From: Symbiodinium natans
Lineage: Eukaryota; Sar; Dinophyceae; Suessiales; Symbiodiniaceae
Assembly (NCBI GenBank): GCA_905221605.1
Contig: CAJNDS010002107.1
Coordinates: 62,001-126,000 of the forward strand
Length of the DNA stretch: 64,000 bases
Direction: 5' to 3'
Of the stretch, positions 1-64,000 are shown in pieces (positions within the stretch are counted from its first letter, which is position 1; each line of letters starts with the position of its first letter). The translations under genes and the position numbers were made by a program. A model generated the notes under the pieces. The model saw nothing but the letters and a program-made list of their open reading frames with translations. It was not told the origin of the DNA and did no database searches.

Positions 1-1250
1 GGGGGTGGGGGGGGGGGGGGGGGGGGGGGGGTGGGGGGTGGGGGGGGGGGGGTGGGGGGGGTTGGGGGGGGGGGGGGGGGTGGGAAGGGGGCGGGTGGGA
101 AGGGGGGAGCAAACGGAGCGGGCGGAGCGGGCGGGCGTGCGCTGGCGTCAGTCATCTGATCATCTGATCCAGTCTAGAGAGGGGAGGAGGATGGAGTGGA
201 ATGGTGTGTCGGGCATGCGATGGAGGGGAAGGGGAAGAGGTTGCGGTGAGGGCAGGGGTAGGGGAGGGGGATGGAGTGGAATGGTTGGGAAGGGGTGGTT
301 GGTGGTGGGGGGGGGAGGGGGGATGAGGTAAGTTGGAGAAGGGTGGATAAGGTTGGGAAGGGGAAGGGTAGTGGGAGGAGGGGCAGGGAAGGGGTTGGAT
401 TGGGGGTACGGGGGAGCGGGGCAGGGGTGGGTGGAGGAGATGAGGTGGTGGCTGGAGAAGGGTGGGGGTGGGGGGGGGGTGGGGGGGGGGTGGGGGGGCG
501 GGGGGGGGGGGTGGGGGGGGGGGGGGCGGGGGGGGGGTGGGTGGGGGGGGGAGGGGTGGAGCAAACGGAGGAGTGGAGTGGGTGGGAAAGTCAGATCGAG
601 TGGGGGGGGGGGGGTTGGGGGCATGCGCTGGAGCCCTTTAAAGCATCTGATCCAGTCTAGAGAGGAATGGTTGGGAAGGGGGAGGGCAAGGAAGCAGCGG
701 TTAGTGGTGGTGGGAGTGGGGGGGAGGGGGGCAGGTGGAGGAGATGAGGTCAGTGCCTGGAGAAGGGTGGATTGGGGGTGGGGAAGGGGTGAAGGGGTTG
801 GTGGTGGGTGGAGTGGGGGTACGGTGAGAGGGGGATGGGGAAGGGGTGGGGGAGGGGGATGGAGTGGAATGGTTGGGGGGGCAGGGGAAAGTCAAAAGAT
901 GAGGTAAGTGGCTGGAGAAGGGTGGATTGGGGGTGGGGAAGGGGGGGAGGAGGATGGAGTGGAATGCTTGGGAAGGGGAAGGGTAGTGGGAGGGGGGGCA
1001 GGTAGTAACGGTGAGGGGCGGGCAAGGGGTTGGTGGTGGGTGGATTGGGGGTACGGTGAGAGGGGGGGCAGGGATGGGGAAGGGGTAGGGGAGGGGGATG
1101 GAGTGGAATGGTTGGGAAAGGGAGGGGGGGGAGGAGAAGGGGTTGGTGGGGGTTACGGGCAGAGGCAAGGCCAAGTGGAGAGGTGGAGTGGAATGGTTGG
1201 GAAGGGGAAGGGGGAAGAGGTTGCGGTGAGGGCAGGGAGGGTCTTCACTG
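1..1250. repeat. G-rich low-complexity tract
   Basis: The + strand is almost pure G with scattered T and A, first as G runs with single T and then as GGGGA/GGTTGGG-like text. Degenerate units recur, for example GGATGGAGTGGAATG near 190, 270, 860, 950 and 1098, and a CATCTGATCCAGTCTAGAGA motif near 160-180 and 645-665. The long open frames here on both strands encode only G/W/R or P/H/S and are composition artefacts. G-quadruplex formation is likely. No gene is seen. Confidence 0.85.
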
Positions 1251-1425
1251 ACGCCGCCCCGCTGTTGCTGGGGTCGGCGGATACATGGACTTAATGTTTT
1301 GGCTTCGCGGTTGTTTGGGTTGGGTGGGTTGGGGCAGCTGGGGTTGGCGGGGGCCTCAGTCTCCATGGGCAATTCGCTCCCCAAAGTCTGAGGTTCGGGT
1401 GTAGGCTTGAGGGTGTAATTTACTC

Positions 1426-1535
1426 GATCAGTGTTAGGGATCCTCTTTTACTTTTTGGGTTATGGGCTTTCTTTATATATAAACAAAAAGGATCCTTTTT
1501 TTCTTCCTAGGGGAACAGGGAGTAAGATTAGGGTA
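1426..1535. mobile_element. Palindromic MITE-like element, copy 1
   Basis: The segment shares the motif GTTAGGGATCC, a T-rich arm, a TATATATAAACA centre, AAAAAGGATCC and a TTCTTCCTAGGGGAAC tail with 9190-9285. The GGATCC plus T-run and A-run plus GGATCC arms are inverted repeats, so it can fold as a hairpin. There is no coding capacity. It is interpreted as a small non-autonomous element present twice in the window. Confidence 0.55.
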
Positions 1536-1587
1536 TAGGGTTCAGATCTGGCTCGCCCCTAAGCCCAGCTGTAGAACGGGGTCAGGG

Positions 1588-1857
1588 TTGAGGGTTTAGG
1601 GTTTAGGGTTTAGGGTTCAGGGTTTAGGGTTTAGGGTTTAGGGTTTAAGGGTTTAAGGGTTTAAGGGTTTAAGGGTTTAAGGGTTGAGGGTTTGCAGGGC
1701 TGCTCGCATGATTAGCTTCGGCCGTCACGCCAATATTGATGCCGGCAAAGCTGCTCTGGCGTGTCCATTGCGCATTAAACCCTAAACCCTAAACCCTAAA
1801 CCCTAAACCCTAAAGCCTAAACCCTAAACCCTAAACCCTAAACCCTAAACCCTAAAC
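1588..1857. repeat. Opposed telomere-like arrays
   Basis: A TTTAGGG array (about 1588-1690, with a TTTAAGGG variant block) faces a CCCTAAA array (about 1776-1857) across an 80-bp island that contains an exon-like segment. The two arrays are reverse complements and could pair. Confidence 0.9.
1698..1758 (+). CDS. Exon-like island, function unknown
   Basis: A TTTGCAG acceptor-like sequence precedes an open stretch whose reading AARMISFGRHANIDAGKAAL contains an NIDAGK string reminiscent of the P-loop of translational GTPases (HIDAGK). The resemblance is short and the second half of the P-loop (TT) is not kept. A GC or GT donor could follow near 1759. It may be an exon of a gene whose other exons are not identified, or chance. 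Confidence 0.2.
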
Positions 1858-1880
1858 TGCCGAGAGCGCCGCTGTCCATT

Positions 1881-3832
1881 TACATGGGCGCTCGAGGCTT
1901 CGACCGAGGTCCCCGCCCGAGCGTCTCCACAGAACGGGGCCTGCAGTTCCTGGCTACGTGGCTACGCCTCAGACCTAGAACGTATCTGGGGCCAGGGCTG
2001 GCAGATTCCAGGGACCCCCCCCCACCGCGACCGGCACGATTTTACCCTAAAGCGACCCTCTGGGACCCCCCTGAAACCCACGTAAAAAGAAAGTTTCTGG
2101 GAGCCTGCTGCAACCCCCTTGTCTCTGACAGAGATGGTTCTTCTGGTTGTGGGATCTGTTCAAATTTCTGCTGCCGCCTGGCACGCTTTGAGGACCTCCA
2201 AGCCTGCTTTTCCTGGAACCCTTCTCTGGGACCTTGCCTTTGCAAACTGTTTTCGTGGTTGAAAGCAGGGGCCGGCCGAGGCCCCTGCTTCCCCCTACCG
2301 CTTTAAGGCTGCATGAAGCCCCGCGATCCAGGATTTGCCCAGAAAGTAGTGAAAACGTTGGTTTTTTAGTATTGCAATCTCCAAGAAGCCTAATTACGAG
2401 CCACTGACAGGCTCCACGAGGCAGGAGGCCCAACCTTGCTCTCTTGTATAAAGCAAGAAAGCCCCTCTTGAGGGGGGGGGTTTGGGGGGTGAACCCTAAA
2501 CCCTAAATGAGAATAGTTTGGGTGGTTGGGGTGGGACTACATGCTAACGCAAGCGAGCGGCCCGGGTGCTTTTAGCACCGCGAGCTTCCCTTCTATAAAC
2601 CCTAAACCCTAAACCCTAAACCCTAAACCCTAAACCCTAAACCTTAAACCCTAAACTCTAAACCCTAAACCCTAAACCCTAAACCCTAAACCCTAAACCG
2701 TTGGAGAAAGAATGGAGTCTCTGGCAGCAGAGTGCTTAATTGTGAATTAGGTGCATGTGCGTGCCCGAATGTCCCGGATCCTCTTGCGCTACCCGTTCTT
2801 AGTAATTTTTGTTTTGGTTACTTACTTACTTTGTGGATTAGCTGCCAGTAGCGTGGGGAGACAGACATCTTGCACACTTTGAAAAGCAAGGCTGAGGGGA
2901 GGAGACTCCATCAAGGTGTGCCCATCTTGTGGATCGATGTGGTGGTTGGTTTTGGGTGTAGCGTTTTCTCATCGTTGGGATCGATGTGGTGGTTGGGATG
3001 TTGCAGCTGGAGAGAATGGAGTCTCTGGCGGAAACCTGTAGGACCGGCTTGCCTAGAGGTGTGGACGTGTGTAGCAAGTTGGGACAGCTGCCCCTCAACA
3101 TGGAATCTAGCTGTGGATCGATGTGGTGGTGGTTGCTGCAGTCGGGTTTTCCTATCGTTAGGATCTATGTGGTTTTTGGGTTGCTGCGGTCGATGGGGGG
3201 GCAGATGTCAGATGCAGAGTAGGAGAACCATGGGCAAGCTACAAAGCAGGCTAGCCTGGAGGATCCTGGGGGTGAACCGGAATGGTCACCCCGTAGAGAG
3301 CAGTTGAAGGACAGGTTTCTGCGTTGTCTACTTCCAACTGGTCTGTTAAGCTGTGTGTTCCACAAGGCAACTGCTCCAAACCTTGTTTGCTGTGTTTGGT
3401 GCAGGGCTTGAAAGGCCATTGTACAAGAGCTTCCGACAAAGCCTGGCCGCTAGTCTAGCACTTTGCACACTCGTGAGAACAGGCTGCTGAGCTGCATAGA
3501 GCGATTGAGCGATAGCGTTGTGGTTTAAGTACTTTTCTTGTCTGGTTGGACATCTTATGCAGCTTCAGCGGTGACTTGAAGCCTCTCCTGAGTCCGGCAG
3601 CAGGTCGTTGTGTTTCTTTTGTATTGCTGAGTGGGGCTGTTGACTCAGCTGTGGACTTGGGAGTTCCAGTAGTCTTGATTTTGGCGTAGCCGACGGTGAA
3701 CGAGTATACAGTATTTCCAGACATTCCCCTGCAGAGTGTCCGAACAGGTCAGCTAAGCGGGTGGCAAAAAAACCCTACCCTAAACCCTAGATTCTAAACC
3801 CTAAACCCTAAACCCTAAACCCCGGGTGGCAG
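1881..3832. other. Array-bearing stretch without a recognised gene
   Basis: It holds CCCTAAA arrays at about 2491-2507, 2598-2699 and 3774-3819, and otherwise unique sequence. A local motif, GGATCGATGTGGTGGTTG, recurs near 2932, 2981 and 3116, and AATGGAGTCTCTGGC recurs near 2711 and 3017, which suggests an old local duplication. Open frames of up to 145 codons show no recognisable domain. Confidence 0.6.
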
Positions 3833-3869
3833 GGTGAAATCGAAGCGATGATCTCTGGACCGACCCTTC
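3833..3869 (+). CDS. Exon-like island, possibly upstream exon of the S1 gene
   Basis: It sits between a CCCTAAA array ending near 3819 and a TTTAGGG array from 3905. An acceptor-like GGTGGCAG precedes GGTGAAATCG, which reads GEIEAMISGPTL and ends one base into a codon before GTCGTC. That phase would join the S1-like exon at 4031, but the segment shows no diagnostic S1 residues, so the link is only suggestive. Confidence 0.25.
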
Positions 3870-3904
3870 GTCGTCTGCAAATTCTGTACTAAGACTAAAG
3901 AGGG

Positions 3905-6900
3905 TTTAGGGTTTAGGGCTTTGGGCTTTGGGTTTAGGGTTTAGGGTTTAGGGTTTAGGGTTTAGGGTTTGGGGTTTAGCAAGACTCTGTCGGGAATGGT
4001 TCGCAATGGCCTGCGCGCATGTGCTGGCAGGTTTCGTGCATTATTCCAAAATCCCGGACTACGTCAAGTCGGCGCACGAGGCGCGGCATGCTCAGCTCGT
4101 GGTTGTAATTCAGCGCATATGCTCCCAGTCTCTGAAGTGTAGACTACTGTAGACGTGCCTGCATAGGCTTGCAACCACAGGGCGCAGTTGGCGTAAAGCA
4201 ATGTTATGCTCCATATGTTGGAGGGATTTGCCAGGCTTTTCTGAGCCATGCCATTGTTGTTCAACCCTCGTGGTTTTGACTTGATTGTTTCCCGCTATGA
4301 GATATGTAGCATACGTTTTCCATTCGCTACACAGCTGCAACATAGACCTGACAATCTTACCACAGGGCTTTTATGCCTCCCCTTACCGACGTCCGCCCGC
4401 ACTCATCATCCCCTTCCCCGCGGCCCCGAAAGAGGAGAGCAAACAACTTGGTTTTTGTTCAAGCGCCGTCCCCTGCCCCCCTCTCCCCGCTTCCCTCCCC
4501 CCTCTCCTCCCTTCCCTCCCCTCGTCCCCCTCCCCTTTTCCCCACCCCCTCTCACCCCCCTCGTGCCGGCGGCGGTTAATGCATTTTTCGCATCGGGACC
4601 TTTCAACTTTCGTGTAGATTTAGATCCTGCGCCCACTGTGCTTGCACAGGCCGTCAAAGTTTGCGACAAGGTCCGGGTGAAGGTTCTCGGTATACATACC
4701 AAGCCAGAACTGGGCAGCTCGTGGGGTCTTCAGCAAGAAGGACTGTCGAGGGACGCTGGCAAGTCACGCTTGCGGTTGTTTGTGGGACAGTGCCAGAAAA
4801 AGTTGTGCCGAAGACAATTTGCAAATGTTCTTTCTGTGTTGGCTTCTGTCCAACTTGAAGGTCTACCCCCACGTAGAACTACCCATGAACCTCCAAGCAG
4901 GTATATGCTTGCCTTTCATGCAATCCGAGCTCCATTTTTCGACCATGGCAGATTCGCTTGTTGACAAGTTGAATCCCGTCCACTCTCTCCCGAAGCTTCT
5001 TCACTGAGCAGTTCTTGCATTGGGGCTCCGAGGCATGTAGCGGTTTCGCCGTTTGCTACAAGCCAGTCCTTGTGCTTTGTGTTCCGAGATGTTTCGAGAC
5101 CCTGAACCGTAAACCCGTTCCTAACCGTACGGCAGCCTTATGTCAGCTGTCGTTAGTGGAGTGGAGGGGCTCCTGTCTGTCAAACGCATCGCCCCGGTTT
5201 CGTGGCACATTGTGGACATCATGCGCGTGCCAACAAGAAAAACCCAAACCGAGAGAGCCCGGAGCACCATACGCTCTAAGGGTAGTTGCATGGTCCCTTA
5301 ATATGGTCTCTTACCTTCTTTAAAGGGTTCAGAAGTAGGGTAATTATGTAAAGGGTATACAAGGGAGCCCTCTATCTCAGCCCGAACCCTAAACCGTGAA
5401 CCCTAAACCCTAAACCCTAAACCCTAAACCCTAAACCCTAAACCCTAAACCCTAAACCCTAAACCCTAAACCCTAAACCCTACACCCTAAACCCTAAACC
5501 CTAAACCCTAAAGCCTAAACCCTACACCCTAGTTAAACTCTAAACCCATACCGGGAGCGCCTCTTCAGGAAGCAAGCCGCGTCTGGAGCTGGCATGGGAC
5601 CGAAAGAAGGTCGCCCACGAGAACCTGCAAAGGCGATGTGGCGAGCGAGAGAGCAGAGGGCTCACGGGGTTTAGGGTTTAGGGTTTAAGGTTTACGGCTT
5701 AGGGTTTAGGGCTTACGGCTTCGGGTTTAGGGTCAGAGCCAGGTGGGCTTCAGAGTTGGCCGGTTCTTGTTTTTGACGGTCTTTTCCGCGCACTTTTTCC
5801 TTCACAACGTTCAGTTGGATGCCACATGGTCACTTGTCCAAAATACAAGGAGCGAGGAGAAAAACACAGTCCCTAAATTGGGATCCTTCTTAGAAGCCGG
5901 CCCCCATTATTCAGGGTACCCAAACCCTAAACCCTAAACCCTAAACCCTAAACCCTAAACCCTAAACCCTAAACCCTAAACCCTAAACCCTAAACCCTAA
6001 ACCCTAAACCCTAAACCCTAAACCCTAAACCCTAAACCCTAAAAGGGACCACTCTTTTGAGAAGTGACCAGATGACCCATGCCAGGATGCCAGGTTGCCT
6101 TTTAAGCTCCAATGGCTGTCCGAGCTGCGACTTTTCCCCTCGTCAGTACCTTTTCCCTAAAGGGGTTCCCTTAGGGAAGAGTTTCGGAGTTCAGGGTTTT
6201 AGGGTCTGCGGATCAGAGGCCTGGATGCAAAAAGGGTCTAGGGTTTGGGGTTTGGATGAAAAAGGGTTTAGAAAAAGAGGGTTAAGGGTTTAGGGTTTAG
6301 GGTAAAGCGATGTCATGGAACAACCCCCCCATGTGCGCCAGGGGCCAGTGGCTCACTGGCACCGTCTACAACTTAAAGGCGTTTGGGCTCTTCGTGGAGG
6401 TGCTCCCCTCAACCCTAAACAGTGAAAACCCTAAATCCTAAACCCTAAACCCTAAGCACTGAACCCTAAACCCCTAGAACCCTAAACCCTACATCCTAAA
6501 CCCTGCCACGGGGCTTCTCCAACAAGTAGCATTTAAACAAGTTGTCCGGCTGATCAATCGAAACGTAGCCTAAAAGGGATGCGTCTGTGGGTATGATCGA
6601 TCATGACCCCTTGTAATTTCGGATGAATCTGCATGGTTTAGGGGTTAGGGTTTAAGGTTTAGGGTTTAGGGTTTGTTCGTTTTTTGGGAATTCAAGTCAG
6701 AGACAAAGCCTCATGCTCCCTGCCCGCCCTGTCTTTGCTTCTCTTACCGGTTCAGGGCTTATGGGCTTACGGGGTTCTGCCTTGGACCCCTCAGGTTGTA
6801 CCCTTGGGTTTGGGAAGTTTTTTGCTTAAGAAAGCTACTAGACGTACATCCTTCGGGGTAAGGAGTATGGGGCGTATGGGGGTGCATGGCCTCTCAGTCG

Positions 6901-9900
6901 ACTAGCCTTCGGTTTGCCAGGTTTAGGGTTTAGGGTTAGGGTTTAGGGTTTAGGGTTTAGGGTTTAGGGTTTAGGGTTTCGGGTTTAGGGTTTAGGGTTT
7001 AGGGTGTAGGGTTTAGGGTCTAGGGTTTAGAGTTTAGTTTAGGGTTTAGGGTTTGGGGTTTAGGGTTTGGAATGTAAGGTTTAGGTCTCCACACGTTCCC
7101 GACAGCGCAGCGATGGAGGTGCCAACAAAAGATGGCCCGTGCCAAGGCCCCGGCAGGGGTACCGGGAACTTAGTGGGACTGGGGCCCTGAACCCTAAACC
7201 CTAAACCCTAAATCCTAAAGCCTAAAGCCTAAAGCCTAAAGCCTACAGTTTAAAGCCTAAAGCCTAAAGCCTAAAGCCTAAAGCCTAAAGCCTAAAGCCT
7301 AAAGCCTAAATCCTAAAGCCAAAACCCTAAACCCTAAACCCTAAGCCCTAAGCCCTAAGCCCTAAACGGTGCTGGGCAGGCGCCGAAGCTGAGCACCGCA
7401 AGCCCCAGCCTAAACACCCCGAACCGCTAGTGCCATAGTTCATGGGACTAAAGGAGGACCCTTATAAGGGACCTTAGAAGTTCTTTAGGGGCTTAGGTAT
7501 AGAAGGGAAGAAGATTTAAGCCTCCTTATTCCCCGTAACTGAAGAGGGTTTGGTGTCAAGGGTTAAGGGGGCACTTCAGAGCAAGAGCTTGGCAGCGGAG
7601 GAGCTGTAGCAAGGCGAACCTGCCGAGTGTTGGTACAGGCGCTTTAGGGTTTAGGGTTTAGGGTTTAGGGTTTAGGGTTTAGGGTTTAGGGTTTAGGGTT
7701 TAGGGTTTAGGGTTTAGCTCTGCAACTGCCTTGCATTCCTTATAAGAGTAGAATACAAGCAACCCAAATTGATCAAATCCCAAACCCTTCCAATCCTCCT
7801 TCTTCCCCTTCAAAAACACGAGTGCAAACTACACTCAGCACCCACTTGGGTTTAAGGTTTAGGGTTTAGGGTTTAGGGTTTAGGGGTCAATCGGTGTCTA
7901 TGTTGCAAAGTGAACTTCGACTCTGGCAGCCCAAAGCTCGGAGCCAAAAACCTGCAGCACCTCGGAGGATTTCATGTTTGGGAAGAATATGTTCACTTGT
8001 TGGGGGCGGGGGGGGGGGGGTTCTGAAGCAAATAGAAGAAATGGTGCTGCATTAGGAGGCTTTACCCTAAGGTTTCAGATGTACCTATATAGCAGTTCCT
8101 TGGGCCTGAAAGGATTTGGGGTTTAGGGTTTAGAGTACCCATGCAGTAGCTTTAGGGCCCAGGTATATACGATAAAGGTACACGTACCTTTAGGGTTTGG
8201 AACCGGGGCAGACAAGCGTTGTAGGAAGGAACCCCCCCCCATATGGGCCCTTAAAAGGGGACCCCTTATACACATCTTATGTACCCTGTAGAAAAGAAGC
8301 GCCCATACATCAGAACCCTTTAAAGGAGGATAGGGACCACATTAAGGGCCTATGAAACTACGGGACCCAAGACAGAACCCTAAGCCCTAAGCTCTAACTT
8401 TCAACGCTAACCACCCTTTTGAGCGCGGACTTGAGCTCGAAGCACCTCTATAAGGGTTTAGGGTTGAGGGTTTTGGGATGATGTTCTTTTATTTGTTGGT
8501 TCTTGGGAAACGGAACAGTGACACTTCAAACAACCCTCCGGTCTCAACCCCTGGCCAGGCATGGTGCACATCTCACAAATCCGTGAGGCCCGACTGGTAT
8601 ACCGACCTAAACCCTCAACCCTCAACCCTCAACCCTCAACCCTAAACCTTAAACCCTAAACCCTACAGCTCAGGGTTTGGGACTTTAAACCGGTCGAAGC
8701 TGCTGGGGACATGGGTTTGCTGGGTCCAGGGAGGTTTCCAGGCACGTCAGGGAGCCCTGGTGGGAAAAGATTAAGAGCTGTGGGGTTCACGGTCTGGGTT
8801 TTCTCTAGGGTTTTTGGGGTTTTCAGGACGGTAGGGTGGGTTTTAGGATGCAGGGTTTGGGGCGTGCTTGTAAATCGCCCTGACTCAAAAGCAGTGAGCT
8901 TTTGGGTAGGAAGCTAGGTCATGCTGTGACTAGCCACATCTATCTTCAGCCTGCGCCGCTGCCAGTTTTGCAAGATACGGCGGCCTGCACACTAAACCCT
9001 GCGGCGGGCATGCCAATAGTTGCCTGGACCCAAGGTTGCCACAAACATGCTTAGGACTAGGACCCTAAGCCCCAAACCCGGCCGCTGAAGTGGCGAGGGG
9101 TGTCCCACATGGCTCTTGCAGGGGTATGTCGAGGACGTCAGAGCAGAGGCCGGATGTCGGTTCATCCTCTTTGTTTGGGGATGACTAAATCAGTGTTAGG
9201 GATCCTTTTTACTTTTTGGCTTTCTTATATATAAACAAAAAGGGATCCTTCTTTCTTCCTAGGGGAACTGGGATTAAGATTGGGGTTTAGGGCTTCAGGG
9301 GGGCTTAACGTCTAGGGCTGAGGGTTTTGTTGCAAGGGGGCTTCGTTTTATTTGTTTCGCGGCCGACGCTAGGTTCTAGCTCTTGGCAGGTTCCCTAGCC
9401 AAAGTGCGTTTTGGATCTTGAATGCTAAAACTTAAGCACCTTTGCCACGTCCCAAGAGAAGGGACCCTCAAACCCTCACGAAACAGTGGCTTTTCGAGGA
9501 GTAGCTTGCAGGGGCCCTGTATGGCGAACCCTTGAATCTAGGATGTTTAGATTTGAAATTCTTAAAAACTTTGTGGCCTCTCATTGTGCCACCTCGCAAG
9601 CATGCGGTCAGCTACTCCGACATACACGGCAGACCCTCACTGCTTCACCTCGTGTCCCGACTGAGCCAGCCAGAAGCCCTAAACCCTCAACCCACAAGCG
9701 CAACAACCCCTAAATCGTAAACCCTAAACCCTAAACCCTAAACCCTAAACCCTAAACCCGAAACCCGAAACCCTAAACCCTAAACCCCAAACCCTATAGT
9801 CCTTAACCCAGCATCTCTTGCGCGCACATCACATGGAGCCCAGGCGGAAATCGGACATCAAGTGCCCTGCCGAGAGAGTGTTGCCATCAGAGTTTTCGGT

Positions 9901-10545
9901 TTGGGGAGATGTTTCAGCAGGCCGGATGCAAAAATGGTGTAGGGATGCACAAAGCACAGGGTTTAGATGGGTTTAGATGGGTTTGGGGTTTGGGGTTTAG
10001 GGTTTAGGGTTTAGGGGGTTTAGGGTTTGGGTTTTCTTTTTCCGCCCCTTGTTGCAGTTGCACCCACCTGGTTGCTGCAGGCCTTGTCGGGTTTGCGCTG
10101 CACAGTGCAAGTCGGCTTAGCTACAGGCATGTAGTCCAAATGCATTCACTTCGTGATGTTGTATGACGGACATGCCATCCTCACTTCTACCAGCCGCTTG
10201 CTTGGAGAGATGTGTCCCTTCACCTTGCAGCATTTCAAGCCCTGGGTTTGGTTTTTTTTTTCGGGTTGGGCCAAGAATCCCAAACCCCCAAGCCTTTCTT
10301 GTCATCTGTAGCCAGCTCAGGTGCAGGTGCGCGTGCTCGACATCAAGGGGGACCGTGCCGGGGGATCCGGATCTCACTTGAGGGTTGGGGTTTAGGGTTT
10401 TTTTGGTTTAGGGTTTAGGGTTTAGGGTTTAGGGTTTAGGGTTTAGGGTTTAGGATTTAGGGTTTAGGGTTTAGGGTTTAGGGTCTTAAGACCCGAATCC
10501 AAAGGCGCGAGGAGCAAGTTTAAACCGTCACGCCTTGAGCCTAAA
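3905..10545. repeat. Telomere-like arrays within S1-gene introns
   Basis: TTTAGGG arrays: about 3905-3977, 5670-5735, 6245-6305, 6640-6675, 6920-7085, 7645-7717, 7855-7886, 8455-8475, 9965-10030, 10385-10485. CCCTAAA arrays: about 5390-5535, 5925-6043, 6412-6505, 7190-7365, 8608-8668 (CCCTCAA type), 9670-9797. Most of the reconstructed introns contain arrays, and several contain both orientations. The 5' splice site after the exon at 5569-5668 is the first GT of a GTTTAGGG array. The block at 7210-7325 is homogenised to a CCTAAAG variant. Confidence 0.8.
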
Positions 10546-10673
10546 CCCTACCGCACCCCTTTAAGGGGTTTCATAGTGCCCCTACTTCCTTAGTAAGGTT
10601 TTAGAATGTCGAGTGGGACGTCCCAGGTGAAATTCTCGATGCTGCCTGAGCGCAGCAACGCCAGAAGCTCCGG
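4031..10673 (+). CDS. S1 RNA-binding-domain protein, many short exons (partial)
   Basis: A split gene for a protein with at least two S1 (OB-fold, RNA-binding) domains. Exons: 4031-4101 (GFVHYSKIPDYV), 4618-4689 (VCDKVRVKVLG), 5569-5668 (SKPRLELAWDRKKV), 6342-6401 (GQWLTGTVYNLKAFGLFVEV), 7106-7158, 8559-8596 (GMVHISQIREARL), 9122-9136 or -9172, 9844-9879 or -9898, 10321-10356 (VQVRVLDIKGDR), 10627-10673 (VKFSMLPERSN). Exons 4618 to 8596 join in phase with AG acceptors and GT donors, except a GC donor at 6402; a second GC donor fits at 10357. The pieces fall in the S1 order GxVxxxxxFGxFVEV, GMVHIS, VxVRVL. The 4031 to 4618 junction is out of phase with the obvious donor (4102), so a donor or small exon is missed. 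Both ends of the gene are unresolved. S1 domains occur in ribosomal protein S1, PNPase and rRNA-processing proteins; which family this is cannot be said. Confidence 0.72.
9190..9285. mobile_element. Palindromic MITE-like element, copy 2
   Basis: Close relative of 1426-1535 with the same GGATCC-plus-T-run and A-run-plus-GGATCC inverted arms, TATATATAAACA centre and CTTCCTAGGGGAACTGGGA tail. It lies inside an intron of the S1-domain gene. Small indels separate the two copies. Confidence 0.55.
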
Positions 10674-11640
10674 GTCATCTTTGTTTTAGTTCGCGTTGTG
10701 GGGTAAGGGGGTTCCAGTAATTCTGGGTCCATGTTGTTTAGGGGGGGTGTAGGGGTGTTAAGGGACTTGGCCATTGACAGCTCAACTTTCAGTTGGAGGT
10801 CGCTGGCGACTGCCCTGCTGAGAAAGGGCTGCCCGACGCATCCATCGACACCCGCCCATCGATTTTAGGGGTTTTCTGGTGTGTCCAAAACTGATGCCCT
10901 TGCCCGCCAATGGGAAGCCCTCAAGCGACTGAGTGTCCAGGTTTTAGTGGGCGCAAATAAGCCGGCTCGCCCTTCCCATGCAGGATGCTTCGTTGTTTCG
11001 GCTCTGGGGTATAGGGCCCTAAGCCCTAAACCCTAAACCCTAAACCCTAAACCCTAAACCCTAAACCCTAAATCCTAAGCTTGGGATGTTCCTCCTTCTC
11101 CGAACATCCCAAGTTGAGGGCCCGAAGCCCTAAGCCCTTCGCAAAAAGCAACCCGAAGAAGTTTAGGTGGGGTTGAGGAGAACAAGAAGCGAAGACTGTA
11201 CCGACCTGCTGCATAGCCCTCAGAACACAGAGCCCTAGGGTTAGGGTTTAGGGTTTGGGGTCTAGGGTTTAAGGTTTAGGGTTTAGGGTTTCTCGTCAGA
11301 TTTTCGGCTAGAGGGCCATGACCCTGGGTATGATGTAAAGGGACTCCCGATGTCCAGCTTCGAGGTGCCTTGTTTCTACAGGTTTCTATAGTTTTTTTTT
11401 TCATAAGGCTTTTTACAGGCTTTTGTAGGTTTTTATAAGGTCTTTATGGGCTTTTATAGGGTTTACAGTGCTCATGGGGTTTATGGGGTTTGTAGGGTTT
11501 ATACAGTCGGGCCGGGGCCCTTGGTGTCTTGAAAGACCTGCCGTGCTTGGCTGCCGTTTCCTCAAGACCCCGCCAGGGGTCTGCTCCAAAGTGGGCTGCG
11601 GCTAGGGATGCGCAGCTTGCGCTCAAGTCTGCTCGCCGTT
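10674..11640. other. Stretch without a recognised gene
   Basis: It contains a CCCTAAA array (about 11023-11072), a TTTAGGG array (about 11235-11290), a perfect 12-bp inverted repeat at 11080-11113, and from 11390 to 11500 a T-rich degenerate (TTTATAGGGTTT) stretch. The S1 gene may continue here, but no exon could be placed with confidence. Confidence 0.5.
11080..11113. repeat. Perfect short hairpin related to the MITE ends
   Basis: CTTGGGATGTTC and GAACATCCCAAG are perfect 12-bp inverted repeats around a 10-nt loop. The arm matches the outer ends of the elements at 34612-34713 and 52588-52695, so this may be an internally deleted copy of that family. A more decayed hairpin with the same loop lies near 54968-54990. 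Confidence 0.6.
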
Positions 11641-13140
11641 GAGCTTACTCTATTAAAATACGAACCTATTAATATACTCTCACACTTTTCATCATGTAAT
11701 CATGCAAATATTTAGCGAGATTGTGATTATTCGTAATATTATGATATTATGACATTCTGGTATTATGATACTATGATATTTTGCGATTAGAAAACGCTTC
11801 AATTTTTAGGTTATTATGCCCTTAGAAGAACATATTATTTTCTGCCTCTTTGCGGTTGCAGTTGAGAAGCTTGCGGGGACCTGAGTACGTCGAGCTGTCG
11901 GTGGTGCAACTCAATGATTCCCACACCCAAAAATAGGAAGTGAAATCAATGAACGGACCAAGAGGGAAGGAACGTGACTAATGATTGTGGCAAAACAGGC
12001 TTCCAAAGAGTCCTTAAACACCAGGAAATGATTGGTCTTTTGCTCATTTAATTCGTTTTATTCCTAAAAGACCACATTAAAAGACAAATTCAGATTATTA
12101 GTGGAGGTCTTATTGGGGGATTCGTTCACTTTCAGAATCAAGAAGTGAAGAAAATGACAGTAAAAAGATTAATGGAATGAATGAGAGAAAGATATTAGAG
12201 ATGAAGGCACACTAAAAATGCATTCTATTTCCTTGTCAATTCATTTCTTTTGTCTGCTAATTTCATACGCAACAGGAATATCATAGGTGTACAGTATACT
12301 GATTATCTTTTATCAGTAGTTTTAATGTCTTCTGTTCGCGTATTCGTCCAGTTACCAAATGCAAGAATGAAACAGATAAAAAACTTGTTAAAGGAAGTGA
12401 TTTCTCTTTCCTTTATGATTCTAGGATATCTGCTAAATTTCCAAGAATTTGATCGATTTTTAAGGCGTGATCGGTTTTCAAGGAGTCATAAGTGAAGATA
12501 TCATGTGACCACCAAGGATTATGATTACTGCGTCCTTTTTCCCATTCATTTAATTTGTACATCTCGTTCTTGCAATGTCGTTCTTATTTCGTACAAACGT
12601 GAAGCGAGGAAAATTCTCGTAAACTAGCCCGTTTATGCTGATTATATTACTATTGGTGTACATTATTAACATAATATTGCAAGAGGGATTTAGGGCTTAG
12701 GGTTCCTAATTTCAGGGACGCCCACATCTCTAAACCCTAAACCCTAAAGCGTAAATCGCACAGTGCCAAACTCATGTTGCTCTGAGGCCCGAAGTGTCCA
12801 GAGAACTGTTCTAAGCTGCAGGAACTTGAAAAGTTCTTCCCGGCATTATGAACGTCATGATCTGATTTGCCGTTATATCATCATCATTAACTTTGTATAT
12901 ACACGTGATAGATAAATAGTAATAATGGTAGTAATGAGAATAAGAATAAGAATAAGAATAATCAAAATTATGGTTGTAATAATAAATAAATAAATATATA
13001 CATGTATATATATTATATTATATTTGTGTATTTATTTATTTATTTACTTATTATTTGTTTATTTACTTCTTCATTTATATGATGTATATGTATATTTGTG
13101 TTGATTTACATGATATATTCCTACAAATCTATATCATCAT
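11640..13140. other. AT-rich island
   Basis: Composition changes sharply to AT-rich, with ATTATGATATT-type runs (11720-11790), GAATAA repeats (12938-12962), TAAATAAATA and TATTTATTTA runs (12978-13075). Two tiny telomere-like scraps occur near 12690 and 12733. The longest open frame, 12250-12495, lacks an ATG start and has no recognisable domain. This could be an inserted AT-rich element or organelle-derived DNA; no organelle gene is recognised. Confidence 0.6.
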
Positions 13141-13158
13141 TGGCCCACAGCCGTCGCC

Positions 13159-13258
13159 ATGGCGGACGTCGGCGGGCCCTCGGGTCTGGCAGTGCCCGGG
13201 ACCCTGGACTGGCTCTTCCCCAGCGTGCGCCAGGCCAGCTTGTGGGTGCTTCTGTACA
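13159..13258 (+). CDS. Exon-like island with ATG start
   Basis: An ATG in a strong context (CGCCATGGCG) opens 33 codons reading MADVGGPSGLAVPGTLDWLF and onward, GC-rich and coding-like, directly after the AT-rich island. It ends one base into a codon at a GT that is the start of a TTTAGGG array (13259-13300), so the array would supply the 5' splice site. No domain is recognised. It could be the first exon of a gene continuing rightwards. Confidence 0.35.
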
Positions 13259-14001
13259 GTTTAGGGTTTAGGGTTTAGGGTTTAGGGTTTAGGATTTAGG
13301 GCCTTTAAGGTTTCCGGTTTCAAAAGGGTTCAGGGCGTAGGGCTTAGGGTTTAGGTAAGGGTTGAGGGTTTAGGGTTTACGAAAAGGGCAGGAGTTGAGG
13401 ATTTGGAGGGTTCTGAGGGCTGGCGTCTGAACACGAGCTTAAACGGCAACGACAGGCAGGCGGCAAAGCCACACACCCAAACCCTCACAACCCCATTTGC
13501 CTCCCCCCCAACCCTAAACCCTAAAACCGCTAACCTTAACATCCTAAAGCCTATACCCTAAATAGAATCACACTGCAACCCCTGAGTTATCATGAGATTC
13601 TTGAGCTCTTACACACCAGAGCTCAGAACCCCCGAACCACCTCAAACAGTTCCAAAAGCCATCAGAATACTCCTTCCCAATTCCCAAGTTCAAGAGAAAC
13701 ATAAGAAAAAAGCGCCAGACAACCTTAAGTTCCGTGAAAGCATTCTTCAAGCACTGTTTGAGACCGACGTGTTAAAACGGTTTAGAGTTTAGAGTCCCAA
13801 AGAGCTCTACATCCTGGGACCCTAAGCCCTACACCCCTAAACCCGAAACCCTAAACCCTAAACCCCAAAACTGCTAAAACCCTAAGCCCTAAACCCTAAG
13901 CCCTAAACCCTAAACCCTAAACCCTAAACCCTAAACCCTAAACCCTAAACCCTAAACCCTAAACCCTAAACCCTAAACCCTAAACCCTAAACCCATCACA
14001 G

Positions 14002-17409: not shown

Positions 17410-17745
17410 CCCGCCCAAACCCTAAACCTGAAGCCCTAAGCCCTAAGCCCTAAGCCCTAAGCCTAGCCCTAAGCCCTAAGCCCTAAGCCTAAGCCCTAAG
17501 CCCTAAAGCCCTAAGCCCTATAAGCCCTAAGCCCTAAGCCCTAAGCCCCTAAGCCCTAAGCCCTAAGCCCTAAGCCCTAAGCCCTAAGCCCTAAGCCCTA
17601 AGCCCTAAAGCCCTAAGCCCTAAGCCCGAAAAAAGCCTTAAGCCCTAAGCCCTAACCCTAAGCCCTAAGCCTAAGCCCTCAGCCCTCAGCCCTCAGCCCG
17701 AAGCCCCAAGCCCTAAGCCCTAAACCCTAAACCCCCCCCACCCCC
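17410..17745. repeat. Homogenised CCCTAAG array
   Basis: About 300 bp in which nearly every heptamer carries the same A-to-G variant (GCCCTAA), with short CCCTCAG runs at the distal end and ordinary CCCTAAA only at the edges. Such uniform variants indicate local tandem expansion after the original repeat was seeded. Confidence 0.9.
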
Positions 17746-22050: not shown

Positions 22051-24645
22051 ATGAGCATTCTCGTCAAGCGCATTACAGGCAAGACAAGCACTCTACCATA
22101 TGTTGATGCAGGTGAGACAGTTCTGTCTGTGAAAAAGAGGCTGGAGGATGTTGAAGGTATTCCAGTCGACCAACAAAAACTGATCTTTGCCGGCAAACTC
22201 CTCCAGAACGAGCAGACCTTGTCCGACTACAAATACCAACCGGGTGAGCTCATACATTTGTGTCTGCCTGGGCTCCGAGCCGGACCAAGGTATGACGCAG
22301 TACTGGATCACCAGTTCCAGGGCCCCGTCCTGGAGGTTTTGTCCACAGACTGTGCGCATCGGGGTGATTGCCCAGTTCTGGCTCGGTGCCGAGACTCGTA
22401 CGAGTACACCGAGGAGGCTTATGTTCACATGAAGAGCTGTTACCACGGCGCACGCATCCCTTGCAGATACGGCTCAGATTGCCGGGCGCATCAACGCCTG
22501 ATCCGTGGGGGCGAGCGACTTGACGACAGGCGGGTTTGTGTAGCAGCCCTTGCATGCACAAAGTATGCTTCAAGCTGCCCCAAGGTTGCGATCCTGTGTG
22601 TAACTCCGGTGTACCAGTATGTATAAGCAATAAGAACATGAAACAGGTTTGACTAGCAAACGTCCAACAGCAGTCTACGTAGACGATAACAAAACGGCAC
22701 CAACTGCGACAACCCCTTTAACTGAAAGCTTTCCAAAAGAGCAGCAGAAGCTGGGGCCCAGGCGTTGACCAAAACTCGTGCGTTCATCATTTGCGAGTGT
22801 GGCAAAGCGCCTGCGGTGTCACGCGGGTGTTGCCACAGGCGTCCACAAGCATCCACAAGTGTCCGCGGAGCCGCATGCGCCCTTGATTTTGTCAAGGCCC
22901 GCATCTTGCGGGTGTCATGCTGGCGACTTACCTAGCAGAAGCTCTCACGAACCCATTTTCCCCTGCTCCGGTCTAAAGCCGAGCCTGCTCCTTCGGGCTG
23001 CGCAGGGAAACGGCAGCGGCAGGAGACCCTCGCTCAGGCCAAAGAGGCACGACCACCCAAGCAAAGTGAGGGCTCCAAAGGCGCTTTTTTTAAACTCTCC
23101 GCCTCCACTGCTGTTAGTATCGTTGTGTATTTCTATTTCTGTTTTCATGTTCCTGTACGTTTCGACGGGTGCTCCGGCTCAGCCTTTGTGCAGTATTTCT
23201 CCTCCTCTGAGCTCAGTAGTTGCGCATGGACCTCCAGCAACAGTGTGACAGACAGCCTAGACACGTATGAAGATATCGCAGATGCTTTCTGCTTGCCACG
23301 ACACAAGCTGTCAAAGACACAAGCTGTCACAGCCTGTAGTCGCAGCTCCTGATTCATTAAGAATCGCGTGTGGTATAGTTTTGTGGCGTTTTGGGGTGCC
23401 GGAGCGTTCGCCTACTTTCAGTTCCATTTCATAGGTGCGCTCTCTTTAACGACGATTCCCGGCTCTGAGAATCGAATCTCCTGCTTTTTTGTAGGCGGTT
23501 GCGACCTGCACCAGAAAGATACCCCGCCCGTCGCTCACCTCATGCGGGCGATCCACATGTTTGCATTTGGGTTTCTGGCTCCTAATCATTGTCCCAAGTG
23601 ACAAGTGACCCTGCAGCTGAACCTTTGGTGGCTACGAAGTGTACTTGTATTAATGGTTTGTAAAGGTGAGGCGATCAAGAGTGAACTGCACGATTCGATG
23701 CTGCTAGCATTTTTCTAACTCATGTAGTCGTCTGTGCACGACACCAGGTGTCATGAGCTGATCTTTGACCACCCGCCGCGCTTGCGAATGCGCGATATGG
23801 AAGGAAGAGGTTTCAACCCTTTAGCGTGCGTCAGGAGCTCCGGTACGGTCTCAAGCACCGGCCTATGCGAGTCCGTGGATGTTAAACGCGGCACAGTACC
23901 ATGCCTCTACAGGGTGAAGCTGCCAAAGGATGTCGGCTTACAACCAGACAGAGATCTCGTTCGGGAGCTGATGGCTGAGGTGGAGCGAAATGGCTGTGGG
24001 AATCAGCTGATTTCCACGGAGGGGCAGTCCCTCATGTCGGTCGCTCGAAGGTACAGAGATCACCCTTTCCATGCATCCATCGGTATGCCTCTCAATGATG
24101 GGGAGCTGCTCGCGCTGGTGCTGTACACGGGATGTGACTGCAACTACTCCTTGACCAGATCCCTGTTGAACGACGATCATGACACTTGGAAGGTGTTCGA
24201 CTACACGCTTTCCATGGCCATTGGCATTTTGTCCTGGCACTATCGGGCTTCGGAAGTCCCCTTGTATACCGGACTCTCCAAGGTTTACATAGATGCGTCC
24301 CTCTTTCTTCCGAGTGCTGATCGGTTCAACAACCACGGGGCATTTCTCAAGTGCCACACCAGCACCTCCACCAAGCGACAAGTGGCCGAGGCGTTTCGGG
24401 GTTTAGAGGGTGTGCTCATCACCATTCCTCCGCAAACCGCCCCTAAGATCCACACGAGAACTGATCGCGTGTGTGGCATGGCTCCAGTCGCTTGGATCTC
24501 CAAATTTGGGGACAACGAGGCCGAGGTGCTCTTCAGCCGCTTCACGTGGTACTCCATGCAGTTCCGCGAGCGCTCCCGTGTGAACGGTCAGCAGGAGGTG
24601 GATGCATTCTACAACGTCGGCATGATCTATGGCGAGCTGCTTTGA
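22051..24645 (+). CDS. Ubiquitin-like, PBZ-like zinc finger, ADP-ribosyltransferase-like fusion protein
   Basis: Two exons, 22051-22529 and 23748-24645, give 458 residues. Residues 1-78 resemble ubiquitin (IPVDQQKLIFAGK at 37-49, TLSDY at 56-60) but end LRAG instead of LRGG, so cleavage to free ubiquitin is unlikely. Residues 101-134 are Cys-rich. Residues 138-174 (CRYGSDC, then a Cys-His pair at 161-162 and DHPP) resemble a poly(ADP-ribose)-binding zinc finger (PBZ) with an insertion, completed only by splicing. Residues about 270-440 match the arginine-type mono-ADP-ribosyltransferase plan: LALVLYTG, LYTG at 332-335 where the R of R-S-E would be, TSTS at 364-367, and EAEVLF with Glu417 and Glu419. 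The usual NAD-contacting Arg is Thr334, so catalysis is uncertain. The gene may link ubiquitin-type and ADP-ribose signals. The domain calls are by eye. Confidence 0.75.
22530..23747 (+). other. GC-AG intron of the ubiquitin-like/ART gene
   Basis: The intron begins GCGGGT after GACGACAG and ends CACCAG before GTGTCATGAG. Joining restores DDRCHELIFDHPP in one frame and completes the zinc-finger motif. The AG|G acceptor and GC donor are typical of dinoflagellates. Unlike the S1-gene introns it has no telomere-like array. Open frames inside it (up to 156 codons) have no recognisable domain. Confidence 0.75.
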
Positions 24646-26109: not shown

Positions 26110-28600
26110 CACACTACACCTGAAACCCTAAACCCTAAACCCTAAAAACCCCTGGGGGGGGAGGGGGGAGGGGATTCGGGGTTTTTCCGTTGGCCCTCCA
26201 GTGCATGGAAGGCAGTATATAAAGGCCTCACAATTTAGGATTTAGGGTTAAGGCTGAAGGGTGTTTTTGGGGTATTTAGGGCTTCGTTTCTGAGTACTTC
26301 GCGATAGCCTTTAAACCTTTTGGGGGGTTATACAATCCTACCAGAATTGCCCAGGGAACTTACAACTCAGCAACCCTAAAATCTGGGGGGCAGAGCTTAA
26401 GCCCTTCGACCTCTATGGCGTCGGTCGACCCAGGTTGTTCGTCCGTTTGCTCAAAAAGTTGCATTTTTTTGGGATCCAAACCCCAGAAGTTAGGCCGAAA
26501 CCCTAAAAGGAATAGGTTTGGGTGGTTTTGCCGCCTGAGATGGCGTGGGGTGGGATAAAAGAGTTAGATGGCCCTCCACTATCGGGCCATGGCTACTCCT
26601 CGCATTTCACGAGGCTATCGAAGCGAGTCTGCATCCCAACCTTCACAGCTTCTGCGCCCAGCAAACCCTAAACCCTAAACCCTAAACCCTAAACCCTAAA
26701 CCCTAAACCCTAAACCCTAAACCCTAAACCCTAAACCCTAAACCCTAAACCCTAAACCCTAAACCCTAAACCCTAAAAACACTAAACCTAAACCCGTAAT
26801 ACCCTAAAAACCTAAACCTAAACCCTAAACCATAAACCCTAAACCCTAAACCCTAAACCCTAAACCCTAAAACCCTAAAACCTAAAACCCTAAACCCTAA
26901 AGTCCCTAAACCCTAAACCCTAAACCCTAAACCCTAAACCCTAAACCCTAAACCCTAAACCCTAAACCCTACACCCTAAACCCTAAACCCTCAACCCGAA
27001 ACCCTAAACCTTAAACCCTAAACCCTAAACCCTACACCGGGTGTTCAGGGTATTAGGGCCCTCTGGTTGCGGCTGTTGAAATTTCTTCGGTTTGCCGGGA
27101 GGGCCTTGGGTGGAAGTGGAAGCCCAGAGTCTTTAGGGTTTAGGGTTTAGGGTTTTAGGGTTTTAGGGTTTTAGGGTTTAGGGTTTAGGGTTTTAGGGGT
27201 TTTAGGGGTTTTAGGGTTTTAGGGTTTTAGGGTTTTAGGGTTTTAGGGTTTTAGGGTTTTAGGGTTTTAGGGTTTTAGGGTTTTAGGGTTTTAGGGTTTT
27301 AGGGTTTTAGGGTTTTAGGGTTTTAGGGTTTAGGGTTTGAGGTTTAGGGGGATGAGGGCAACAGGGGACTTTCGAGCTTCGGACTTTCAGCAATAGGGGC
27401 CTATGAACATTCGACATACTAACAGTCCTGACTAGGGATTTTGTACCCCTATTATAATCTTAAGGACTGTTAGTATAAGGGGAGCATCCCAACCCAAAAC
27501 CCTAAACCCTAAACCCTAAACCCTAAACCCTAAACCCTAAACCCTAAACCCTAAACCCTAAACCCAAAACCCTAGACCACCAGACCACGGCCTGCAGCAA
27601 CGTTCAACTTGCAGGCGTCAGCCAGTTCGGATGCCACGGATCAGTGGCCAGGCTGATCTAGGTAGGCCCGGGACATTTTATTTACTTACCTTGTTGGAAT
27701 AAAAAAGCTTAGTCGTTGAGTGTTATTTACTTACCTTGTTGGAATAAAAAAGCTTAGTAGTTGAGTGAGTACACTTTACACTTTTAGGGGTACTATAAAG
27801 CTCTATAAAACTGAAAGTGTACACTTTGTGGGGGCTTATGAACTTAGCAACTAAGAAAGGGATAGTATCCAGGAATATGTGTCAGAGGGTTTTAAGGGCC
27901 CATGCCAGCGATGTTTCAGACTCGGGAGTCGTCTGTGGGTGGTTTCAGGGTTTTGATTTTGGGGTTTAGGGTTTAGGGTTTGGGGTTTAGGGTTTAGGGT
28001 TTATTCTTTGGGTACATCGCATGGGTCTTGTGCCCCTGCGTTATCAAGGGCATCTTGAGTAAAGCGCGCTCGGAGTAGAGGTGGTTACCTGCCAACAGTT
28101 GGTGGAAAGTGCGCACTCTTTCAAGCCTTGCATCATTCTGCCCCAAGCCCTGTCCCAAACCCTACCCTAAACCCCAAACCCTAAGCCTTAAGCCCTAAGC
28201 CCGAAACCCTAAACCCTGAACCTTAAACCCAACTTTCTGGCACATCAGGAGTTGCGTTGTGAGGGAGGCACCCTAGACCCTAAACCCTAAACCCTCGATC
28301 CTCAACCCTACACCCTAAACCCTGAACCATTGGGCCAAGAACACATGTACCGCCTCGCAGCACGGAAGCTTTGAGCACCAATTCCCTCCGGTCTCCACTT
28401 GCTGGTCTTCGTTCTTAGTCAGGAAAAACCTTGCGGTTTAGGGTTTAGGGTTTAGGGTTCAGCATCTCAAGTCCAAGCATTCACTAGTCAAGGACTTCAT
28501 CGAGCGTTGGAAAAATACCCACCCACCCAAAGAATCCCATAACATTAAGAACATATTTCGCTTACCTTTATAAATTCAGGCGACAAGACAACAACCCTAA
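26110..28600. repeat. Long telomere-like arrays and small repeats
   Basis: A CCCTAAA array at about 26664-27033 faces a TTTAGGG array at 27134-27350. Much of the latter is homogenised to an octamer, TTTTAGGG (27150-27325). Further CCCTAAA at 27496-27575 and TTTAGGG at 27962-28003. At 27676-27770 a unit of about 46 bp (TTACTTACCTTGTTGGAATA) is present twice in tandem, followed by an inverted AGTACACTTT/AAAGTGTACACT pair to 27830. No gene is recognised. Confidence 0.8.
27410..27492. mobile_element. Palindromic MITE-like element, family copy
   Basis: Inverted arms TACTAACAGTCC (27417-27428) and GGACTGTTAGTA (27464-27475) surround a short AT-rich centre with TATAATCTTA. An outer GGGGAGCATCCC matches the ends of the copies at 34612-34713 and 52588-52695. 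Confidence 0.65.
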
Positions 28601-28619: not shown

Positions 28620-28941
28620 GGGCCTTGAACCCCTTTGAACCCTAAACCCAGCCCATAGTGGGGCCTGAGCCCTAAAGCCCCTAAAACCAGCCCAGGCTAG
28701 ACCCTAAACCCTAAAGCCAGCCCAGAGTAGGCCCTGAACCCTAAAGCCAGCCCAGAGTGGGGCTTGAACCCTAAGCCAGCCCAGAGTGGGGCCTCAACCC
28801 TAAAGTCAGCCCAGCCCAGAGTAGGGCCTGAACCCTAAAGCCAGCCTAGAGTAGGCCCTGGCCCTGAACCCTAAAGAGCCAGCCCAGAGCAGGGCCTGAA
28901 CCCTAAAGCCAGCCCAGAGTAGGCCCTGAACCCTAAAACCA
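28620..28941. repeat. Degenerate tandem repeat of about 30-37 bp
   Basis: Around ten units built on AACCCTAAAGCCAGCCCAGA plus GTAGGGCCTG, that is, a telomere heptamer fused to a non-telomeric segment and amplified together. Confidence 0.85.
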
Positions 28942-29517
28942 CCTTGCCCAGTAACACGACGACCTTGCCCAGTAAAACGGCGACCTTGCCCAGTAAAACG
29001 GCGACCTTGCCCAGGAAAACGGCGACCTTGCCCAGTAAAACGGCGACCTTGCCCAGTAAAACGGCGACCTTGCCCAGTAAAACGGCGGCCTTGCCCAGTA
29101 AAACGGCGACCTTGCCCAGTAAAACGGCGACCTTGCCCAGTAAAACAGCGACCTTCGGGCACACCCCCCTGCCCAGTAAAAATGCTACCTTCGGCCCCGA
29201 ATGTCGCCGTTTTACTTGGCAAGGTCGCCGTTTTACTGGGCAAGGTCGTTTTTGGTTAAAAAATCGACCTTGCCCAGTAAAACGGCGACCTTGCCCAGTA
29301 AAACGGCGACCTTCGGGGTCCAAGGTCGCATTTTTACTGGGCAGGGGCGGAAGGTCGCCGTTTTACTGGGCAAGGTCGCCGTTTTACTGGGCAAGGTCGA
29401 TTTTTTTGACCGAACTGACCTTGCCCAGTAAAACGGCGACCTTGCCCAGTAAAACGGCGACCTTGCCCAGTAACACGGCGACCTTGCCCAGTAAAACGGC
29501 GACCTTGCCCAGTAACT
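28942..29517. repeat. 21-bp tandem repeat in alternating orientation
   Basis: The unit is CCTTGCCCAGTAAAACGGCG plus one base. It runs forward at 28942-29158, inverted at 29203-29248, forward at 29266-29318, inverted at 29332-29400 and forward at 29417-29517, with short unique spacers. Each switch makes a potential large hairpin. Because 21 is a multiple of three, every frame stays open; the open frames of up to 205 codons are artefacts. Confidence 0.9.
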
Positions 29518-41560: not shown

Positions 41561-41926
41561 GGCCTAACTTTAAAACCGAGGGTTTAGGGTTATTCTCTTT
41601 GGGGCCAGACTGACGCTGGCACGCGGGTTCCACCCTTCTATGCGTGGGCCGCGCTCATCGCGCGCACTGGCCCCGAGCCCTCGCCAGGCTTCGCCGGACG
41701 GCTCGGGCTCGTCCGCGGGCTGGCGCCACGCGGTATCGCTCGCTGCTGCTTATCGCAGGACCCGCAGCTCGCTCTAGTTTAGGGGCGGTAGTTCGTGATC
41801 ATGCTAAGCCGAAACAGGGTCGCAACCCTGTTAAGCCCCTAACCCTCTCACCTGCACCTCTGGCCCTGAACTGGCTTTCTCTTGGCTTGTTGAAGGCTGA
41901 ATGTTGGAAATCTCTCACCTTCAACT

Positions 41927-61696: not shown

Positions 61697-61762
61697 CCAT
61701 GTTCGAGTGGGCCCAGCAGGCTTGTAGGGTGCCCGATGTGGCTGCTGGGCCGGTGCCGGGAG

Positions 61763-63832: not shown

Positions 63833-63897
63833 GGGTGGATAGGCAGCGAACCCGGTCAAACTGCCATGGCAAACCAAGAATATGGAAACTAGTAAAT

Positions 63898-64000
63898 CCT
63901 GACTGAAATCCTTGAGATTCCAAGTGCGGCGCCGACAACAATCGTACAATCAAGAGTTCCCCCATCCCCAGTTTGCGTCGGGACAGGTCTCTCAGCAAAA
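63898..64000 (-). repeat. 5' repeat A1 of the retrotransposon (truncated by window)
   Basis: Identical to 55863-55965. It lies upstream of the Gag-like ORF. The outer 24 bp expected from A2 are outside the window. Confidence 0.88.

Follow-up and report, generated by a model that had tools for sequence, protein, structure and literature searches.

The 64-kb window of the Symbiodinium natans genome analysed here (the whole stretch of 64,000 nucleotides, C1795:62001-126000, from the 673,035-bp contig C1795 in an assembly of 759,417,921 bp and 2,543 contigs) contains the final exons of a gene predicted to encode an S1-domain RNA-binding protein, in whose introns lie arrays of the telomere-type unit TTTAGGG. 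The gene has 27 exons over 27.3 kb, from the ATG at C1795:45378 to the TAG at C1795:72689; exons 18-27 are inside the window (4031-10689) and the other 17 are to the left of it. Its coding sequence of 1,536 bp specifies 511 residues with zero internal stops, after manual extension of the first exon to its ATG and of the last to its stop codon, and the first-pass annotation of the window was right to regard it as a real gene. The spliced alignment of the whole gene to its relative P0003 (score 1322) spans P0003 residues 12-498, and 327 of the 478 residues aligned are identical (68%); the corrected protein as a whole reaches 83.3 bits with Pfam S1 (PF00575; gathering cut-off 22), in three S1 stretches. 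Judged from the sequence (exon order, an open reading frame (ORF) from ATG to stop, orthology, type of splice site and array positions), it is almost certain that the gene is real and that the arrays are intronic, and very likely that this is an intact nuclear gene for an S1-domain RNA-binding protein, the single copy found in the genome, with telomere-like arrays in its introns. The N-terminus of the protein is hydrophobic and signal-peptide-like, as judged by eye; a role in the plastid is no more than conjecture.

Exons, relatives and splice sites of the S1-domain gene

The first-pass annotation had joined five short islands into consecutive parts of S1 domains, and these are indeed coding sequence in S1 order: the spliced alignment of P0001, a partial Symbiodinium protein, to window positions 3901-8700 reaches a score of 278, whereas 24 control segments of the window do not exceed 82 (mean 57.6, standard deviation 8.2) and 15 shuffled versions of P0001 do not exceed 75. 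As for the island boundaries, the acceptors at 6342 and 8559 stand, and 4689 and 5569 are among the alternatives at their junction, but three of the four donors, the acceptor at 7106 and both outer limits do not; with P0001 and P0003 as guides, 4618 moves to 4650, 5668 to 5632, 6401/7106 to 6399/7119, 7158 to 7146 and 8596 to 8587. Five exons of the window (4031-4080, 9122-9148, 9844-9861, 10321-10356 and 10627-10689) had been overlooked, and the protein joined from the original islands reaches 17.4 bits in the Pfam S1 search, under the cut-off of 22. The matching of codon phases at the junctions, offered as strong evidence, proves to be weak evidence, because phases agreed even at junctions that turned out to be wrong. 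Overall, the observation is partly confirmed and its interpretation supported, the main point being right and most of the details wrong. The junction of exons 19 and 20 is placed at 4689/5569 only with a bonus for AG/G acceptors (the slash marking the end of the intron), the plain solutions being 4702/5573 or 4706/5577. The part of the gene inside the window is as follows (window positions).

1-4030, + strand: right-hand part of intron 17 (the intron is C1795:60911-66030); seven arrays within 1528-3979
4031-4080, + strand: exon 18 of 27, GFVHYSKIPDYVKSAHE; AG/G acceptor, GC donor; spliced alignments to P0001 and P0003
4650-4702, + strand: exon 19, AVKVCDKVRVKVLGIHT; alternative donors 4689, 4702 and 4706; alignments to P0001 and P0003
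5569-5632, + strand: exon 20, PRLELAWDRKKVAHENLQ; alternative starts 5569, 5573 and 5577; GC donor; alignments to P0001 and P0003
6342-6399, + strand: exon 21, GQWLTGTVYNLKAFGLFVE; AG/G acceptor, GT donor; alignments to P0001 and P0003
7119-7146, + strand: exon 22, VPTKDGPCQ; AG/G acceptor, GC donor; alignments to P0001 and P0003
8559-8587, + strand: exon 23, GMVHISQIRE; AG/G acceptor, GC donor; alignments to P0001 and P0003
9122-9148, + strand: exon 24, GYVEDVRAE; AG/G acceptor, GC donor; alignment to P0003
9844-9861, + strand: exon 25, 18 bp, AEIGHQ; AG/G acceptor, GT donor; alignment to P0003
10321-10356, + strand: exon 26, VQVRVLDIKGDR; AG/G acceptor, GC donor; alignment to P0003
10627-10689, + strand: exon 27, the last, VKFSMLPERSNARSSGSSLF, ending in TAG; alignment to P0003 as far as 10659, then by hand to the stop

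A search of window positions 1-4030 for upstream exons of the gene gave no convincing candidate. Positions 1-1250 of this part of intron 17 are very rich in G, with long runs of it, and a 68-nt repeat, 87% identical, occurs both in intron 17 (1473-1540) and in intron 24 (9225-9292). To the left of the window, intron 8 (C1795:50688-58965; loci L005 and L006) contains just one array, of 62 bp, in its 8.3 kb, in which it differs from the other long introns; this may reflect a later insertion.

A protein search with the joined islands and a few hand-added pieces found P0001 (E = 1e-14), which is named rpsA, and P0002, which is an ORF of the window itself and is listed in the database on a contig of 149,589 bp, as against the 673,035 bp of C1795. 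A second search, with the corrected join, found P0003 (E = 8e-47; EukProt s739_g5.t1, 500 residues), P0008 (Symbiodinium pilosum rpsA, partial), four more distant S1 proteins and P0002; among these relatives only P0005, a more distant one, carries a transcript label. P0003 and P0001 share 84.6% identity across 91 alignment columns. The window part of the gene is 68% identical to P0003, 67% to P0001 and 63% to P0008, which is itself 65% identical to the other two, and the rpsA-named Symbiodinium proteins P0001 and P0008, together with the EukProt protein, are considered orthologous to it at this 63-68% identity. The name rpsA overstates the likeness to bacterial-type ribosomal protein S1: the NCBIfam rpsA model TIGR00717 gives P0003 64.8 bits, far under its equivalog cut-off of 577.

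That the locus might instead be a decayed duplicate or pseudogene in subtelomeric DNA is suggested by the repeat-richness of the window, which has 4.16 exact four-unit 28-mers per kb versus a genome mean of 2.25. This is nevertheless most improbable, with the frame open from ATG to TAG, and since the identities of this copy resemble those of P0008 to P0001 and P0003, it shows no clear excess divergence, being no more diverged than the Symbiodinium pilosum protein. An intact homologue elsewhere in the genome, named by the first-pass annotation as the mark of a decayed duplicate, was sought by a protein search of the organism's own genome with P0003, which gave 22 matches, 7 of them within the gene and the others at most 43% identical save one of 30 residues (57%, E = 7.7); no second copy was found, in a search that recovered only part of the 27 exons and that a short diverged copy could escape.

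Judging by its predicted splice sites, the introns of the gene are of the dinoflagellate type, with GC (18 introns), GT (5) or GA (3) donors and with AG/G acceptors in 25 of 26 introns, which the alignment did not reward, versus 40% of the AGs in the same introns (P = 2e-9). These proportions resemble those published for Symbiodinium natans, namely 58% GC, 23.6% GT and 18.4% GA donors and 97.1% AGG acceptors (PMC10666404). Such introns, the orthologues named as Symbiodinium proteins and the TTTAGGG unit all point to a dinoflagellate source. On the sense strand the 26 introns contain 200 TAG/G sites and 125 exact TTTAGGG units; the acceptors used in the gene model are CAG/G in 16 of 26 cases and TAG/G in one (P = 3e-6 for the preference for CAG, in one gene, as predicted). 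Direct repeats at intron ends were considered as target-site duplications and discounted: intron 21 has one of 9 nt, but so do 10% of random AG/G pairs in the locus. A spliced-leader relic was also discounted, the one match with three mismatches comparing with 3.3 expected by chance.

Telomere-like arrays in the gene, the window and the genome

Arrays, defined as exact rotations of the heptamer with gaps of at most 25 bp and a length of at least 14 bp, number 166 in the window (92 G-sense and 74 C-sense) and make up 16.8% of its bases. Those between the islands, which the first-pass annotation had described, are within introns: the gene, a single case, has 50 arrays in 19 of its 26 introns (introns 10-14, 16 and 18 being free of them), occupying 3,386 of 25,776 bp (13.1%) in both orientations (27 versus 23). 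No exon is touched by an array, versus 5.8 expected under random placement (P = 0.0014, whole gene). Arrays in introns 19-26 are given below.

5385-5547, - strand: telomere-like array, intron 19
5667-5733, + strand: telomere-like array, intron 20
5922-6043, - strand: perfect telomere-like array, intron 20
6239-6303, + strand: telomere-like array, intron 20
6411-6504, - strand: telomere-like array, intron 21
6635-6674, + strand: telomere-like array, intron 21
6920-7085, + strand: telomere-like array, intron 21
7190-7367, - strand: two arrays (7190-7212 and 7322-7367) with variant units between them, intron 22; 25 copies of CCTAAAG at 7193-7366
7643-7717, + strand: perfect telomere-like array, intron 22
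7848-7885, + strand: telomere-like array, intron 22
8119-8157, + strand: telomere-like array, intron 22
8453-8473, + strand: telomere-like array, intron 22
8606-8665, - strand: telomere-like array, intron 23
9677-9796, - strand: telomere-like array, intron 24
9958-10028, + strand: telomere-like array, intron 25
10388-10484, + strand: telomere-like array, intron 26

In introns 21 and 22 the first array is C-sense and the last G-sense, which raises the idea that pairing, in the RNA, of a C-rich array at one end of an intron with a G-rich array at the other draws the splice sites together. Such a layout is found in only 3 of the 19 array-bearing introns, however, 7 of 26 introns have no array at all, and the arrays of the window are oriented at random (neighbours agree in 83 of 165 cases versus 82.9 expected); the idea was rejected as highly improbable.

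Mobile introns (introners), which are reported to be common in dinoflagellates (PMC11453091, PMC10666404, PMC7789003), are intronic repeats like those found here, and the arrays could be parts of such elements with telomere-like inverted ends; introns 21, 22 and 26 do carry inverted telomeric pairs, of 16, 13 and 11 nt, at most 120 nt from their ends. The inverted repeats of introners, however, are described as 8-20 nt long and near both intron ends (PMC7789003, PMC10666404), whereas inverted repeats of at least 8 nt within 30 nt of both ends were found in only 1 of the 26 introns. The density of arrays outside the gene is at least equal to that inside, and the flanks of arrays are not more often repeated than control flanks (205 of 816 versus 236 of 816 in random low-telomere DNA of the same regions, 294 kb); introners are a very unlikely source. 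A fixed insertion site was rejected, and a single mobile element with fixed ends is argued against, on the grounds that array starts and ends occur in all seven registers (unevenly, 48-95 per register at starts and 32-114 at ends) and that flanks are no more repeated than the control.

The first-pass annotation had set a transcribed gene against degraded subtelomere; the arrays do sit in a real gene, but subtelomere was the wrong foil, as arrays occur genome-wide. The assembly contains the exact 28-mer of four units 852,709 times on one strand and 853,942 times on the other (1.7 million in all, balanced in orientation), versus 10 + 21 = 31 occurrences of a reversed-pattern control 28-mer. Among 17 sampled 10-kb stretches, chosen at intervals of contig number (one with 3,016 masked bases), arrays are present in 14 and absent from 3, with a mean of 10.4% of bases (standard error 2.5), whereas four other 7-base units cover 0-181 bp per stretch. 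The sampled stretches have 2.29 of the telomeric 28-mers per kb, in agreement with the genome mean of 2.25, and the arrays are estimated from these samples to make up about 10% of the genome. At 4.9-5.4 28-mers per locus, the genome count corresponds to an estimated 315,000-347,000 loci that contain a perfect tract of four units. A subtelomeric location was rejected on the strength of the genome-wide 28-mer count and of the 14 array-bearing stretches among 17 on different contigs.

With 166 arrays between 62 and 126 kb of a 673-kb contig, these are tandem units at internal positions, as putative interstitial telomeric sequences. TTTAGGG has been reported as a dinoflagellate telomere-type unit (PMC11453091). 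The short interstitial telomeric sequences of mammals are described as short tandem telomeric units inside chromosomes in both orientations, as here, but the 229 human and 142 horse loci reported under a looser definition (PMC7215372) compare with the estimated 315,000-347,000 perfect four-unit loci of Symbiodinium natans. In Karenia, interstitial telomeric signals are reported to be rarely seen by fluorescence in situ hybridization (FISH) (PMC6395649); either the dispersal of arrays is not general or it is below the resolution of FISH. A search of open-access papers (including PMC9498494, PMC10235076 and PMC8045281) found no description of telomere-type arrays scattered across the genome of a dinoflagellate or within its introns, a weak negative.

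Neighbouring features of the window

A second gene (22051-24645, + strand) encodes a ubiquitin-like domain (PF00240) and a conserved C-terminal part without Pfam match; its alignment to P0009 gives exons 22051-22529 and 23748-24642, separated by a GC donor and an AG/G acceptor. On the - strand, 56331-63949 contains long ORFs of up to 1123 residues without Pfam match, which by eye are retroelement-like and include a tyrosine-recombinase-like ORF. In the organism's own genome the middle 3.3 kb of this stretch (58400-61700) is found as three near-identical copies of full length plus a partial one. Because the stretch (56-64 kb) is free of arrays and its copies are near-identical, it was probably inserted recently, among arrays of greater age.

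Minisatellites occupy 28941-29515 (a 21-bp unit in both orientations) and 30929-33431 (17-bp-based arrays of AGAAAAGTGGCTTTTCG with longer periods). An AT-rich island with a G+C fraction of 0.40 lies at 12001-14000, and low-complexity ORFs composed of tandem repeats lie at 40521-41567 and 48639-49949. Scans of the window for tRNA genes and Rfam families gave no matches.

Origin of the arrays

The reading favoured here, at a probability of roughly 0.5, is that the arrays originated by insertion at chromosome breaks. Very many independent insertions of telomeric DNA would have produced them, most likely when double-strand breaks were patched with the products of telomerase or with fragments of telomeres, and local expansion of the repeat and decay would have followed. 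The arrays would be passengers in introns, kept there and in intergenic DNA and selected out of exons, and the usual dinoflagellate spliceosome would remove the introns that carry them. Interstitial telomeric sequences of mammals are reported to have been inserted at double-strand breaks (PMC7215372), and it is by analogy with them that insertion at breaks is proposed here. Telomeric DNA is the indicated source because the telomeric unit is strongly preferred over the control units. Of the arrays of at least 35 bp in the window, 13 of 117 are perfect and the others are degraded to varying degrees, as expected if arrays arose over a long time.

An alternative that is unlikely, although it deserves more weight than the others, is that the arrays are microsatellites grown by slippage from chance TTTAGGG seeds, with no part played by telomeres or telomerase. 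The wide variation in array purity would suit it, as would homogeneous variant arrays with units of 7, 8 and 9 bases: 45 copies of CCCTAAG at 17420-17734, about 27 copies of an eight-base unit (TTTAGGGT register) at 27132-27342 and 14 copies of a nine-base unit at 36880-37003. A precedent is reported in another dinoflagellate, Polarella glacialis, where the simple repeat (TTG)n fills 19% of the genome (19.1% and 18.5%; PMC7245778); the likeness is that of one simple repeat filling much of a dinoflagellate genome, and the difference is that the repeat of Polarella glacialis is a trinucleotide whereas the one here is the telomeric heptamer, at about 10% by sampling. Slippage alone, however, leaves the preference for the telomeric unit unexplained, with 1.7 million 28-mers versus 31 and only 0-181 bp per 10 kb of four other units.

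Several observations weigh against insertion at breaks with passive retention in the introns of the gene as modelled. The homogeneous variant arrays show local, in-place expansion, and the registers at array ends are uneven. The single 1.2-kb intron of the ubiquitin-like gene has no telomere-like array. Avoidance of exons is not significant in the window part of the S1-domain gene alone (2.65 arrays expected, P = 0.055). Array bases make up 13.1% of the introns of the whole gene versus 30.4% of the 23 kb upstream, and 21% of the introns in the window versus 24% of 32 kb of other window DNA chosen to exclude ORFs and minisatellites; introns may be partly spared by arrays, because their share is lower than that of the upstream 23 kb. 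Finally, the junction of exons 19 and 20 has alternative placements.

A practical consequence concerns annotation: a real gene such as this one, with exons down to 18 bp in length, would be missed if these repeats were masked or if all introns were assumed to be GT-AG. The introns also pose a puzzle for splicing, in that they contain many TAG/G sites and yet it is mostly CAG/G that the gene model chooses. A broader proposal, put forward only tentatively, is that telomeric patching is routine at the chromosome breaks of this organism, that it has left hundreds of thousands of scars amounting to about a tenth of the genome and enlarging the introns of working genes, and that the spliceosome ignores UUUAG/GG mimics and favours CAG/G. 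Interstitial telomeric sequences are usually viewed as rare scars or as relics of fusion; a genome with roughly a tenth of its bases in such arrays, as the samples indicate, and with some of them in the introns of an intact gene, would offer hundreds of thousands of sites at which to examine how telomeric DNA enters chromosomes.

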